Source: Nostoc sp. NIES-3756 (GTDB lineage Bacteria > Cyanobacteriota > Cyanobacteriia > Cyanobacteriales > Nostocaceae). Taken from it: 64,000 nt of DNA. This document shows, piece by piece, positions 48,021 to 54,493 of the stretch; position 1 is the stretch's first letter, and the number at the start of each line of letters is the position of its first letter. The notes under the pieces are model-generated. The model worked only from the letters and a program-made list of their open reading frames with translations. It made no database searches and was not told where the DNA came from. The stretch lies in contig NZ_AP017295.1 of NCBI RefSeq assembly GCF_001548375.1, positions 3,692,501-3,756,500 on the forward strand, given 5' to 3'. The position numbers were made by a program, and so were the translations under genes.

Positions 48021-49742
48021 TTAGAAGGTGAAGGTAGTTCTCAGAGTTCCGATAAACGCATCATCGTTGTTACCGTTCTGGTTAAGGTTAGTAACCCAGA
48101 TTACACCAGGAGTGATAGAGATGTTATCAGATACACGATATTTGTAGAAACCTTCAACTTGGTAAGGAACTTCATTGTTACCACCAGATGTTCTACCCAA
48201 AGAATAGGGTTGAGCGCCTGCGAAGATACCCAATACGTTTCCTCTCTTACCAAAGTCAGGTAAAGATATACCAGCACCGTAAGTCCAAGCTTCTCTATCA
48301 TCACCAGCACCACTACCTACGACATCAATGTAGGATACGAAACCACTGATTGATAGATTATTGCTGGGTCTAAACGCCGCAGATAAGCCGTAAGCGTTGA
48401 TGGAAGATGGGTTGGGTAAAGCGTTGGCGAATGAACTACCAACTAAGGCGATATCATCTTCATTGCCAAAGAGATTGCCGTTTAATCCGCCTCTATAGCT
48501 GTGAACGTAGGTAGCAGCTAACGCCACGCGATCGCCTACACTAAAGTTCAACTGACCTAAAGCGGAGTAATCACCGTTGAACAAACCTGCATCTGTACCT
48601 GGGTTATTAGCATCTGATGCCAAGTAACCAAGTGTTAAAGAGCTAGGTTTCAGGATACCGCCACCTTGACCAAAAGGTATGTTGAACGCAATACCTGCGC
48701 CACCACCAATACGGTAGATGGGGTTTTCGGAAGAGAAGGTGGATAAAGCACCATTACCGCCGTCGGTTTTGTCAAAGAAGTAGGGGTTATTGACAGCAGC
48801 ATAATGGCTATGACGACCGCCAGCAGCAGCTAAGTAAACTTGAGCTGGGCCGATAGGGGCTTCATAGGTCAATTTGTCTATTTCAACAGCGTTGTTACCT
48901 GTGCTATCAACTTGGAAAGTTTGTAGTCCTTGACCACTAGCACCAATGGGATTGTTATTGTTGTCTCTAAAATCAAAGCCTACTGCATTACCAGAGGACA
49001 GACGGGTAGTTAAAACGTCTCTACCTGTGAAGCTGGTTTGCAAGCCTAAACGTACTCTGTTTTGGAAGACAGTGTTGTTAGCGTCACCTGTGTTGTCACC
49101 AAATACATCGGTAACAGCAAAGATAGCTTCACCAACTAGCTTGGTGGTGGTGGAGAACTGGTTAGCTTCCAATTCTGCTGTGCGTGCTTCTAATGTATCA
49201 ACACGACCACGCAGGGTTGCCAGTTCTGCGGAAAATTCTTCTTGTAAACGTTGTAAAGTAGCTAAATCTTGTTTGGTTACTAGGTCAGCTGTTGCTGTTG
49301 CAATCAATTCGTTAACGCGATCCAAACAAGCGTTTAAACCGGCTGCAAATTCATAACGAGTTAATGCACGGTTTCCGCGATATGTACCGTTAGGATAACC
49401 TGCGATACAGCCATAGCGTTCAACCAAGGATTGTAATGCTTGGAATGCCCAGTCGGTTGGTTGTACGTCAGAGAACTGAGAAACTGATGTTACCTGGCTT
49501 TGAGTAGCTTTACCTTCGTTACCGTAACGGTCAACTTGGTTGATAATTTGGGTTTCGTTGGTTGTTGGGGCTGCTTGAGCCACAATTGCTGGCTGTTGTG
49601 CAACTTCAGTAGGTACTACTGTGTCAGTTGTTGCTACTTCTGTGGTTGCGTTTGTCGCTGCGATCGCTGTTGACGAAACTAACAGTGTTGCGCCTAAAAC
49701 AGCTGGGCTAACCACCAGGGATTTCCACAATATATTAGACAT
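48021..49742 (-). CDS. SLH-domain OprB-type outer-membrane porin (second copy)
   Basis: The 573-residue paralogue of the porin at 20116-21738 has a signal peptide (MSNILWKSLVVSPAVLG…), a Thr/Val/Ala-rich linker, an SLH domain (FSDVQPTDWAFQALQSL), a coiled coil (LRGRVDTLEARTAELEANQ) and an OprB-like barrel ending TTFTF. Its SLH and coiled-coil portion is almost identical to the other copy, while the barrel differs, which suggests gene duplication with partial conversion. ATG 49742 was chosen over 49799 because of the GAGGAG site and identity with the paralogue's start. The gene is monocistronic with a strong terminator. Confidence 0.94.
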   Translation of the reverse strand: MSNILWKSLVVSPAVLGATLLVSSTAIAATNATTEVATTDTVVPTEVAQQPAIVAQAAPTTNETQIINQVDRYGNEGKATQSQVTSVSQFSDVQPTDWAFQALQSLVERYGCIAGYPNGTYRGNRALTRYEFAAGLNACLDRVNELIATATADLVTKQDLATLQRLQEEFSAELATLRGRVDTLEARTAELEANQFSTTTKLVGEAIFAVTDVFGDNTGDANNTVFQNRVRLGLQTSFTGRDVLTTRLSSGNAVGFDFRDNNNNPIGASGQGLQTFQVDSTGNNAVEIDKLTYEAPIGPAQVYLAAAGGRHSHYAAVNNPYFFDKTDGGNGALSTFSSENPIYRIGGGAGIAFNIPFGQGGGILKPSSLTLGYLASDANNPGTDAGLFNGDYSALGQLNFSVGDRVALAATYVHSYRGGLNGNLFGNEDDIALVGSSFANALPNPSSINAYGLSAAFRPSNNLSISGFVSYIDVVGSGAGDDREAWTYGAGISLPDFGKRGNVLGIFAGAQPYSLGRTSGGNNEVPYQVEGFYKYRVSDNISITPGVIWVTNLNQNGNNDDAFIGTLRTTFTF

Positions 49743-50110
49743 TTTGCTTTTCTCCTCACACCTTGTATAGATAATTGTTTTTGTTGCAGCTACTCTCAAA
49801 AGTGCGATATCTTATTTGACTCTTTTGATGAGGCATAGTTGCCACTTTTACAATTTTAGTTTTTGCCAAGCTAATAACTAATTAACTTAATCTTAAAAAT
49901 TAATGCAATCAACTTATGCAAAAACTTACCCATATAGCTGATTATTATAGAGCATTTCGACTGCATGACAAGCCAGTAACGATCACCTCATTAACTGTCA
50001 CACTTAATTCTACATATATACCAAAAAGGAGTAGCCAATGCTTGACTTAGTATGTATAAAAAAATATGTATTTTTTTATATATTTACTTTGCAATTTCCT
50101 AAGGAAAACC
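49743..50110. other. Porin 5' leader and promoter region
   Basis: This ~370-base gap upstream of the porin includes its leader with the Yfr1-like site. The rest is AT-rich with a T-rich run at 50060-50080 (AAAAAAATATGTATTTTTTTAT), near the 3' end of the pterin dehydratase gene. No other gene. Confidence 0.5.
49752..49762 (-). promoter_or_regulatory. Putative Yfr1 small-RNA target site in porin leader
   Basis: On the minus strand GGTGTGAGGAG lies nine bases before the porin ATG, overlapping the ribosome-binding site. It gives 11 contiguous pairs with the conserved Yfr1 loop (CUCCUCACACC). The first porin leader has the same element at 20104. Confidence 0.55.
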
Positions 50111-50392
50111 CTAGTTAATTTGTGAAATCTCCGTTGCCAGATCAAAATCCTTTTGTGTCAAACCGCCTGCATCATGAGTTGTCAGCGTAATTTTGACTTT
50201 ATTATAAGACACCTCTATATCTGGATGATGTCCTGCTGTTTCCGCCGGCTCTACTAACTTATTGACAAATGCGATCGCTTCCACAAAATCTTTAAACTTG
50301 CGGGTAGTCTCCAACTTGGAACCTTGTCGCGTCCACCCAGAGAGTTTACTGGCTTGTGCTTCAATTTCCGCATCACCTAATAGTTGTGCCAT
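50111..50392 (-). CDS. Pterin-4a-carbinolamine dehydratase
   Basis: The 93-residue enzyme dehydrates 4a-hydroxytetrahydropterin, regenerating the cofactor of aromatic amino-acid hydroxylases, or acts in a related pterin or moco role. The active-site signature is complete: AGHHPDIEVSYNKVKITLTT (~residues 54-73), with the two adjacent histidines and the later His of TTHDAGG. Length is normal. It is preceded by the structured RNA region (50511-50810) on the same strand. Confidence 0.94.
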   Translation of the reverse strand: MAQLLGDAEIEAQASKLSGWTRQGSKLETTRKFKDFVEAIAFVNKLVEPAETAGHHPDIEVSYNKVKITLTTHDAGGLTQKDFDLATEISQIN

Positions 50393-50510
50393 TGCCGAAA
50401 TCTCCTACATTTATTACGCCAGAGCATGTCAGTTTATTTTGGCTGTGGTCTATTAACTTTACCACCAACTGTTTTTATATCTCTTTACCACTGACTACTG
50501 ATAATCCCTA

Positions 50511-50559
50511 TAAAAAACTATCCGCTCTGATTTAGATCAGATAATCTAAGTCAGAGCGG
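50511..50559 (-). terminator. Intrinsic terminator of a minus-strand transcript
   Basis: Read on the minus strand, CCGCTCTGA and TCAGAGCGG (50559-50551 and 50530-50522) form a perfect 9-bp stem extended by weaker pairs, followed by ATAGTTTTTT. No protein gene ends here, so it terminates a short RNA starting between psbD and this point. Confidence 0.8.
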
Positions 50560-50660
50560 TCTAGCGGGTCTTCAGGTTGCAACCAGACTGCCGGAAGGAA
50601 CTCCGAGCTTTAGCCTAGCTTTTGGAGCTAACTTAGTCTCAAAAAGACTAAGGCTAACTT

Positions 50661-50732
50661 TTAGAGAACAGCCCCGGCACACAGCCGGCTAACTGCAACC
50701 TGATGACCCATGCTTATACTACTTTCTATCAT
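50661..50732 (-). CDS. Possible 23-aa leader peptide inside the structured RNA
   Basis: ATG at 50732 is preceded by an ideal AAGGAGG ribosome site at 8-base spacing, one of the best in the window, and runs 23 codons (MIESSISMGHQ…AGAVL) to TAA. The start region sits in a hairpin formed by GATGCCCATG and CATGGGTCATC, so translation could be gated by folding. I do not recognise the peptide. Confidence 0.35.
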   Translation of the reverse strand: MIESSISMGHQVAVSRLCAGAVL

Positions 50733-50933
50733 GGGCATCACCTCCTTGTTGCCTAAACGGTCTTAGTCTCAAAAAGGCAGAGAATTTATCTCTGGGTTTT
50801 CACCTTCGACCAATATAACATGAAAAAGTAATTAGTCTATAGTTATTAGTCCATAGTCACTAGTTTTTCTCTCCTGCTTCCTGTTTCCCTCCCAGGAGGG
50901 GCTAGGGGTAGGTTTCTCCCTCATCTCCCCAAT

Positions 50934-50961
50934 AAAAAACCCCCGCACAGGGGCGGAGGCT
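50934..50961 (-). terminator. Intrinsic terminator after psbD
   Basis: On the minus strand CCGCCCCTGTGCGGGG is followed by TTTTTTATT, about 40 bases after the psbD stop codon. It ends the psbD transcript, which confirms that no psbC is co-transcribed. Confidence 0.85.
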
Positions 50962-50998
50962 ATTAACACAATGGCAAGCGATGAATCTTAAATCATGC

Positions 50999-52054
50999 TT
51001 AGAGAGCATTACCGCGAGGTAATACTTCTTCGGGGAATACAAATTTTTCGTGAGGCTGGTCTTGAGGAGCCATCCAAGCGCGGATACCCTCGTTCAGCAA
51101 AATGTTCTTGGTATAGAAGGTTTCAAATTCTGGGTCTTCTGCTGCACGTAACTCTTGGGATACGAAGTCATAAGCCCGTAGGTTTAATGCCAAACCGACA
51201 ATACCTACAGCACTCATCCATAAACCAGTTACGGGTACGAACAACATGAAGAAGTGCAACCAGCGTTTGTTGGAGAAAGCAATCCCGAAAATCTGTGACC
51301 AGAATCGGTTGGCTGTCACCATTGAGTAGGTTTCTTCTGATTGGGTGGGGTTGAAGGCGCGGAAGGTGTTTGCGCCTTCGCCGTCTTCAAATAGGGTGTT
51401 TTCTACTGTTGCACCGTGGATGGCACATAGTAGCGCTCCACCGAGTACACCCGCTACTCCCATCATGTGGAAGGGGTTGAGTGTCCAGTTGTGGAAGCCT
51501 TGGAGGAATAGTAAGAAGCGGAAGATTGCGGCTACACCAAAGCTGGGTGCGAAGAACCAGCTTGATTGTCCCAAGGGGTACATCAAAAATACGCTGACGA
51601 ATACCGCGATGGGTGCTGAGAATGCTAGGGCGTTGTAGGGTCTGATGCCTACTAGACGCGCAATTTCAAACTGACGCAGCATGAAGCCAATCAGTCCAAA
51701 GGCTCCGTGTAATGCTACGAATGTCCACAAACCTCCTAGCTGACACCAACGGGTGAAGTCGCCTTGGGCTTCAGGCCCCCACAATAACAACAGGGAGTGT
51801 CCCATGCTGTCTGCGGGGCTAGATACTGCTACTGTCAGGAAGTTTGCTCCTTCCAAGTAGGAGGATGCTAATCCGTGGGTGTACCAGGAGGTGACGAAGG
51901 TTGTGCCGGTTAGCCAACCGCCTAATGCGAGGAAGGCGCAGGGGAATAATAATATTCCTGACCAACCTACGAATACGAAGCGATCGCGCTTTAACCAGTC
52001 GTCTAGTACGTCAAACCACCCTCTACTGGGGGCGCGTCCTACTGCGATGGTCAT
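50999..52054 (-). CDS. psbD: Photosystem II reaction-centre protein D2
   Basis: D2 binds the P680 chlorophylls, pheophytin and plastoquinone A in photosystem II. The 351-residue sequence is that of cyanobacterial D2 from [20 protein letters not shown] to the end [12 protein letters not shown]. It includes the chlorophyll-ligand His in [17 protein letters not shown] and the iron-ligand His residues near 214 and 268. psbC does not overlap its 3' end: a terminator follows. It is therefore the solitary psbD copy; cyanobacteria commonly also have a psbDC operon elsewhere. Confidence 0.97.

Positions 52055-54421: not shown

Positions 54422-54493
<72 letters not shown>

Follow-up and report, generated by a model that had tools for sequence, protein, structure and literature searches.

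Which kind of element occupies the 300-nt block between psbD and the pterin-4a-carbinolamine dehydratase gene of Nostoc sp. NIES-3756, and does it serve these neighbours or act on its own? An initial annotation made from the sequence alone had taken the block for a structured RNA that looked undescribed, and had offered three readings, namely a small RNA, a leader peptide or attenuator for the dehydratase gene, or a mobile palindromic element. The window referred to in the following is the whole stretch of 64,000 nt that was analysed (assembly GCF_001548375.1, contig NZ_AP017295.1, positions 3,692,501-3,756,500 of the forward strand). Our preferred reading, to which we assign a probability of roughly 45%, is a dedicated and ancient cyanobacterial RNA gene with its own promoter and terminator, which would work as a translation-gated, possibly dual-function regulator whose freed 3' arm, peptide or both act elsewhere.

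Conserved Elements of the Block

The sequence items listed in the annotation were all found on the minus strand between psbD and the dehydratase gene (Table 1), and the block folds with -116.8 kcal/mol (z = -6.6), while none of 200 dinucleotide shuffles was equally good. A comparison across loci identified the closing stem, the Shine-Dalgarno (SD) sequence, the ORF and the terminator as the conserved items. The 16-base closing stem joins 50566-50581 with 50694-50709 (16 nt, 94% complementary) and is kept in relatives, the strong intrinsic terminator has arms at 50522-50537 and 50544-50559 (16 nt, 94% complementary) followed by a T-run, and the mini-ORF with its ideal ribosome site is conserved together with the SD. 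A 15-base repeat was also correctly located, as CTTTTTGAGACTAAG is present at 50762-50776 and 50632-50646, but it is not a conserved feature among relatives: an exact internal repeat of at least 12 nt is found in just 3 of 114 related loci, and we therefore regard it as a local accident and reject it as a functional element. Directly upstream of the RNA promoter, the segment 50827-50859 (minus strand) belongs to a dispersed genomic repeat, for which numerous short matches exist in this genome and in related ones.

TABLE 1. Coordinates of the predicted RNA gene, its parts and the neighbouring genes in the window.
Feature	Position	Strand	Basis
Whole RNA gene, predicted transcript of ~295 nt	50512..50805	-	Promoter motif to terminator
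-10 element TATATT, context TGTTATATT	50812..50817	-	Sequence; predicted transcription start ~50805
Conserved 5' element ACCGTTTAGG	50752..50761	-	Alignment A1
Extended Shine-Dalgarno sequence AAGGAGGTGAT	50737..50747	-	Sequence, alignment A1
ORF, 23 codons plus stop, MIESSISMGHQVAVSRLCAGAVL	50661..50732	-	Sequence, comparison of loci
Rod 5' arm, codon 9 to last sense codon	50664..50709	-	RNAalifold and pair counts on A1
Rod 3' arm	50566..50603	-	RNAalifold and pair counts on A1
Terminator hairpin CTA-GA-CCGCTC.../GAGCGG-A-TAG plus T-run, asymmetric GA/A internal loop	50512..50564	-	
psbD (photosystem II D2), upstream neighbour	50999..52054	-	TIGR01152, E 6.5e-235
Pterin-4a-carbinolamine dehydratase, downstream neighbour	50111..50392	-	PF01329, NF002017
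SLH/OprB porin, por_somb ("iron uptake porin") family, second downstream neighbour	48021..49742	-	NF033921, E 5.5e-161; PF04966, PF00395

Search for Known RNA Classes

The failure to recognise a standard RNA class in the block was borne out by a covariance search against Rfam 15, which returned nothing above the gathering threshold in the block or in six relatives of the RNA; the sole match at this threshold in the whole window is a tRNA at 54422-54493. Even at E values up to 5, the region 50000-51300 gave only six weak matches, all far under their thresholds, and ARAGORN, which searches for tRNA and tmRNA, reported no tmRNA in the window. Yfr6, or Downstream-peptide RNA (RF01704; glutamine riboswitch), was considered as a candidate and rejected, as RF01704 matched neither the window nor the six relatives. 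The 3' end of psbD (50935-51003, minus strand) resembles PsrR1 with 21.1 bits compared with the 42 needed (E 0.36), which is probably chance. The lack of an Rfam class match in combination with strong covariation supports the small RNA among the three readings.

Covariation Between the ORF and the 3' Part

The covariation was analyzed in a MAFFT alignment of 34 diverse members (A1), for which RNAalifold predicts a rod followed by the terminator hairpin. In this rod, the coding sequence between codon 9 and the last sense codon, both included, is paired to the 3' untranslated region of the same RNA. Compensatory changes in the stems, which the initial annotation had proposed to look for across relatives, are two-sided in 28 of 54 pairs (129 such cells), with 96.9% of the cells paired. 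All 500 shuffles scored lower on each of five measures, a count that is not a probability, and the 28 compensated pairs compare with a shuffle mean of 11.7. Sliding the partner by one column reduced pairing to 49%, and every slid version had at most 19 compensated pairs, although the alignment is also the source of the rod structure and favours it in this test. The strongest helix (columns 69-77 with 231-240) carries two-sided changes in eight of its nine pairs at 97% pairing, and the base of the rod, GGGUC/GACCC, is nearly invariant. In the main group of sequences the last pair of the main arm falls on column 107 and the stop codon on columns 108-110, beyond which a weaker further helix is paired in 86.7% of the cells. 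A local hairpin CCGGC/GCCGG competes with the long-range pairing, which we favour because more cells are paired (99.7% vs 96.5%) and seven cells instead of one are compensated.

The terminator has the form with the internal loop in 91 of 114 loci (23 do not fit). Among those that fit, the outer three base pairs are CTA/TAG in 70, CGA/TCG in 10, CCA/TGG in four and others in seven, and the internal loop is GA/A in 68, CA/A in 15 and different in eight. This suggests that the element might be more than a plain terminator, since the triplet closing the asymmetric GA/A (or CA/A) loop changes in a compensated way.

A diverged form of the RNA, found in presumed picocyanobacteria (see below), has the same folding plan with a different sequence. 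Its rod is too invariant for a covariation test, and nearly all compensatory changes sit in the terminator. Here the stop codon starts two bases past the arm in one predicted fold, and another fold adds three pairs that include the stop. In L099, a locus outside this form, the stop codon lies within a predicted hairpin.

Frame Constraint on the Short ORF

Of 55 loci, 54 have retained the ORF, with 23 codons in 52 and 24 in two, while L054 is frameshifted; the end falls on the same codon in 52 of the 55. From AUG to the conserved GGGTC the spacing is 23 nt in 102 rows, 26 nt in 10 and 32 nt in three, which is always in phase; these 115 rows count L116 and L138 twice and leave L054 and some other loci outside the search rule. 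The distance from the stop to the 3' landmark ignores phase, with 36, 35 and 22 of 93 measurable rows in the three phases. From the base of the rod to the landmark CGGCTG there are 22 nt in 94 rows, 16 in three, eight in L055 (probably a false landmark) and 24 in 12 rows, all of them from picocyanobacteria, where the landmark is possibly not homologous; five rows are unmeasured. A purely non-coding small RNA with an incidental ORF would agree with the dominance of nucleotide-level constraint, with the weakness of the codon-score test described below and with the lost frame of L054, but this locus stands alone among the 55, and length differences between AUG and rod that are multiples of three next to a 3' region indifferent to phase argue against this explanation, which we consider very unlikely.

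Among 141 loci that pass the search rule, some genomes being represented twice, the ORF has 23 codons in 111, 24 in 12 and 17 in 18 (14 of them picocyanobacterial). No 25-codon form occurs in this set; L134, one of six loci that have the ORF outside the rule (with L045, L128, L089, L098 and L118), can be read as 25 codons from an upstream in-frame ATG. Stop codons in the 127 non-picocyanobacterial loci are TAA (94) and TAG (33). An ORF of 17 codons was also observed outside the picocyanobacterial form in L089, L092, L099, L106 and L110, with TAG as stop and TGA in L089. The picocyanobacteria themselves have 17 codons and an AUG-to-GGGTC spacing of 23 nt in 27 of 27 extracted loci (from 30 further loci, L171, L177 and L180 not being extracted).

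The codon-substitution score lies marginally above that of column shuffles (p 0.05); the set consists of 32 ORFs chosen to represent 86 distinct ones of 23 codons without gaps, in which the stop position and the S[SCY] pair are required by the search rule and hence uninformative. For the putative translation of the ORF, this marginal score stands next to the in-phase spacing of the 115 rows, and it is the spacing that supports a frame-constrained short ORF within the RNA. The peptide matched no Pfam or NCBIfam entry at E 0.01. It is possible, though less likely than our preferred reading, that the RNA is simply the mRNA of a micro-protein of 17-24 residues, and that the rod and the shaped terminator merely stabilise the message or tune its translation. 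The in-phase spacing and the strong SD agree with such a message, as does an acidic residue at position 3 in 31 of the 32 representatives, and codons 3-6 show some conservation within the main group. Two AGT serine codons of the main group, however, are conserved base by base with invariant third positions (A1), which indicates selection on bases as well as on frame and thus a constraint on the RNA beyond the peptide. In the picocyanobacterial ORF, codons 2, 3, 6 and 7, which precede the rod, vary widely whereas the RNA arms are nearly invariant, and the last six residues are missing in some clades, as the 17-codon forms demonstrate; both observations also speak against a mere micro-protein mRNA.

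Promoter, Shine-Dalgarno Sequence and Start Codon

In a 110-nt interval upstream of the ORF, the promoter motif TGY(D)YTANNNT, which was chosen after the alignment had been viewed, is present in 59 of 114 loci compared with 9.8 expected from mononucleotide shuffles. Within ACCGTTTAGG, the positions C2, C3, A8, G9 and G10 are at least 90% conserved in the 34 sequences of A1, and GGAGGTGATG is invariant in all of them.

The SD lies outside the rod, but folding does not support an open SD and predicts it to be mostly paired. By partition-function folding of 107 loci, the median probability of being unpaired is 0.31 for the SD, 0.53 for the AUG, 0.67 for codons 4-6 and 0.30 for the rod arm, and values above 0.5 were obtained in 18, 58, 89 and none of the loci, respectively. 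The SD is mostly paired upstream in 47 of the 107 loci, and its main partner in the close relatives of the window is the 5' part. For the window itself, the predicted fold pairs AAGGAGG (50741-50747) with the upstream CCUUUUUG (50770-50785), and it is possible that this predicted pairing acts as a separate on/off control; the consensus contains a short helix of GGAG with CCC before the AUG, in which no compensatory change was found. As the SD is predicted to be mostly paired, ribosomes may not load freely, and loading may be a regulated step.

The start codon had been described as buried in a hairpin. The underlying complementarity is real, as CCCATG/CATGGG is paired in 97.5% of the cells and its GATG/CATC extension in 83%, but we regard the hairpin as unproven, because it has no compensatory change, its 3' side is shared with the rod, and the AUG is more open than paired in 58 of the 107 folded loci. 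Long-range pairing is a property of hok-type mRNAs, and a tiny ORF that pairs over a long distance with the 3' region, together with an SD predicted to be mostly paired, could also be expected for a compact mRNA of a type I toxin-antitoxin-like system. A peptide without an obvious membrane segment by eye, a single copy per genome and broad retention speak against this reading, so that it appears highly improbable.

Distribution in Cyanobacteria

A DNA search found the block in 55 of 59 near genomes, the own genome included; of the 56 genomes with matches, G009 has only the dispersed repeat at the 5' edge of the query. The remaining three genomes, G025, G049 and G057, gave no match. A covariance model built from 34 sequences (R1) has one match each in 135 of 386 genomes of the phylum, 134 of which belong to the class of the window, while the match in G130, outside the class, is doubtful (E 6e-4). 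A pattern for the start region of the main form is present once each in 93 of 373 genomes of the phylum, all in the class; by hand count the set comprised 180 genomes of the class and 193 others, and the backward control gave zero matches.

The diverged form with the 17-codon ORF was found in a family of the class with genomes of 1.0-3.9 Mb, presumably picocyanobacteria. A second model from 14 sequences of this family (R2) matched 63 of its 101 genomes. G181, the sole two-copy genome among the 101, has a second, diverged and weaker copy (G181:C1:2023795-2024015) about 5 kb from the first. Some genomes of 1.7-1.9 Mb (G150, G157, G179, G207) match neither R1 nor R2, and loss and divergence are indistinguishable there. 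The picocyanobacterial form is recognised by R1 with E values from 1e-9 to 4e-6. Among 10 sources searched with R2, the main form was detected in L049, L088, L099 and L001 with E values from 3e-11 to 3e-4, whereas L035, L093, L119 and L121 were missed and L055 was reached at E 0.11 only. Judging from these reciprocal searches we take both forms as one family. The RNA gene is, as far as sequence comparison can tell, ancient, widely kept in the cyanobacterial class and nearly always present in a single copy.

The proposal of a mobile palindromic or repeat element, which the palindromes in the block had invited, does not agree with this distribution: nearly all genomes have one copy instead of dispersed ones, neighbours are shared between loci, and viral contigs have no match to the start pattern. 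We give this explanation next to no credence. Outside the phylum, a MAG contig of Anaerolineales (Chloroflexota; L146:6667-6740) contains the same extended SD and start region, an 18-codon ORF (MSDSSTLRSAAASLLIAG and stop) and a structured tail; its match to R2 is weak (E 0.0087) and its fold differs.

Neighbour Genes

The position between psbD and the pterin dehydratase gene is correct for the window, but across loci the dehydratase is just one of several neighbours. In 114 loci, one per genome, psbD upstream and the dehydratase and SLH/OprB porin downstream are always on the strand of the RNA and on these sides where they are detected; all three are present in 37 loci and none in 27, flanks being short in many. 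Where both flanks reach at least 2.9 kb, the porin was detected in 29 of 66 loci, the dehydratase in 18, psbD in 14 and none of them in 24, and with at least 2.9 kb downstream the porin in 42 of 82 and the dehydratase in 26. The simplest history is that an ancestral psbD-RNA-dehydratase-porin cluster broke up piecemeal and the RNA stayed.

These data bear on a cis-acting leader or attenuator, in which translation of the peptide would control whether transcription passes the terminator and enters the dehydratase or porin gene. The anatomy is leader-like, the constant downstream position and strand of both genes fit, and a SomB-type porin directly follows the RNA in L049, L133, L134 and L145. 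As a general reading, however, an attenuator of the dehydratase fails, since this gene was undetected downstream in 62 of the 114 loci, among them some whose flanks are short, the RNA is followed by a gene of opposite orientation in L094, L101, L107, L109 and L117, and a transposon-type gene parts the RNA from the dehydratase in L053, which by eye resembles TnpB of an IS200/IS605-type element. The frequent absence of all three neighbours noted above points in the same direction, and it is unlikely that the RNA is obliged to act in cis on the dehydratase or the porin gene, because the cluster broke up while the RNA stayed. We therefore consider a cis leader improbable; the decay of neighbour order around a persisting RNA indicates that this RNA does not serve as a leader of the dehydratase gene and does not move. 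The -10 motif, the terminator and the loss of neighbours one by one argue for autonomy. At the level of sequence, the comparison of loci establishes the gene, its structure, the frame constraint, its autonomy, the broad presence in the class and the loose neighbours.

Pairing of the RNA with the start region of the neighbouring porin mRNA showed no excess (mean z -0.15, 53 of 70 porin loci) compared with mononucleotide shuffles, with start codons assigned by rule and some of them doubtful. A motif GTG[T/C]GAGGA, resembling the published target site of Yfr1, precedes the porin start in 42 of the 53 loci, and in the window it lies upstream of the porin start near 49742; repression of alr4550 by Yfr1 has been reported (PMC6974561).

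A Candidate Translation-Gated RNA

We infer gating by the ribosome, and any target, from the arrangement of these elements. In the preferred reading of an autonomous, translation-gated RNA, the near-perfect SD and the first eight codons lie outside the rod, and the ORF from codon 9, with the conserved GGGUC, forms one arm and the 3' untranslated part with GACCC the other. As the main-group stop directly follows the ORF arm, a ribosome translating to the end would have to open the whole rod, which would set the 3' arm free until translation stops and the rod can re-close; the freed arm, the peptide, or both would act elsewhere. The act of translation is favoured over the peptide as the functional element, since in picocyanobacteria codons 2, 3, 6 and 7 vary while the spacing stays fixed at 23 nt. 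The micro-protein is kept in play because the partial conservation of main-group codons 3-6 would not be needed by a pure gate.

A more specific version, which we consider rather unlikely, treats the ribosome itself as the ligand of a free-standing RNA whose age would be that of the cyanobacterial class: with a near-perfect, conditionally exposed SD and a frame-locked, largely sequence-indifferent ORF, the transit of the ribosome would open the rod and expose a 3' effector arm, so that the RNA would report the capacity for translation initiation. The architecture gives sharp predictions on a translation-controlled RNA switch, and the locus represents a widely kept cyanobacterial small RNA gene that reaches 63 of 101 picocyanobacteria-like genomes, yet has no Rfam match.

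Comparison With Known Systems

The term undescribed in the initial annotation is probably wrong, and the RNA represents a sound family that is probably already in print. In Synechocystis PCC 6803, ncl0160 has been described as an RNA with a ribosome site and a putative peptide of 23-25 aa, whose homologs are widely distributed and strongly conserved across cyanobacteria (Brenes-Alvarez et al. 2016, PMC4734099). The pipeline of that study used mapped transcription starts of Nostoc 7120 and predicted terminators, and the marine Prochlorococcus/Synechococcus lineage was left out (PMC4734099). The RNA analyzed here has an ORF of matching length with a ribosome site, and the stop codons of the 83 ncl0160 homologs (47 TAA, 34 TAG, 2 TGA; PMC4734099) follow the order found here, with TAA before TAG and few TGA, the latter in L089. 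It is therefore very likely that our RNA belongs to the ncl0160 family, an identity drawn from the published description and not from sequence. The account of ncl0160 mentions a predicted structure, and the sections consulted contain neither a covarying rod of ORF and 3' part nor synteny; alr4548, alr4549 and psbD do not appear in its main text (PMC4734099), nor do slr1841, psbD, alr4549, porin or peptide in the main text of Voss 2009 (PMC2662882). In the open-licence literature, ncl0160 is named in no further paper, and no functional study of the RNA was found.

According to the descriptions consulted, Yfr6 is likewise a cyanobacterial RNA, about 250 nt long, that carries a short ORF, but it differs in its peptide of 33 aa, in a conserved part that is its 5' region, and in having its own Rfam family, RF01704. 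Dual-function small RNAs like SgrS/SgrT and RNAIII combine a regulatory RNA and a short ORF on one transcript and have known targets. The RNA described here also joins a short ORF with a structured RNA; to our knowledge, the ORFs of SgrS/SgrT and RNAIII do not form one arm of a rod with their own 3' part. Leader-peptide attenuators of the trp, tnaC or erm type act in cis on a fixed operon, where translation of the short ORF rearranges the RNA ahead of the terminator, whereas the RNA of Nostoc and its relatives has no fixed co-directional gene downstream. On present evidence, we place its architecture as a variant among the dual-function or leader-peptide RNAs and see no need for a separate category.
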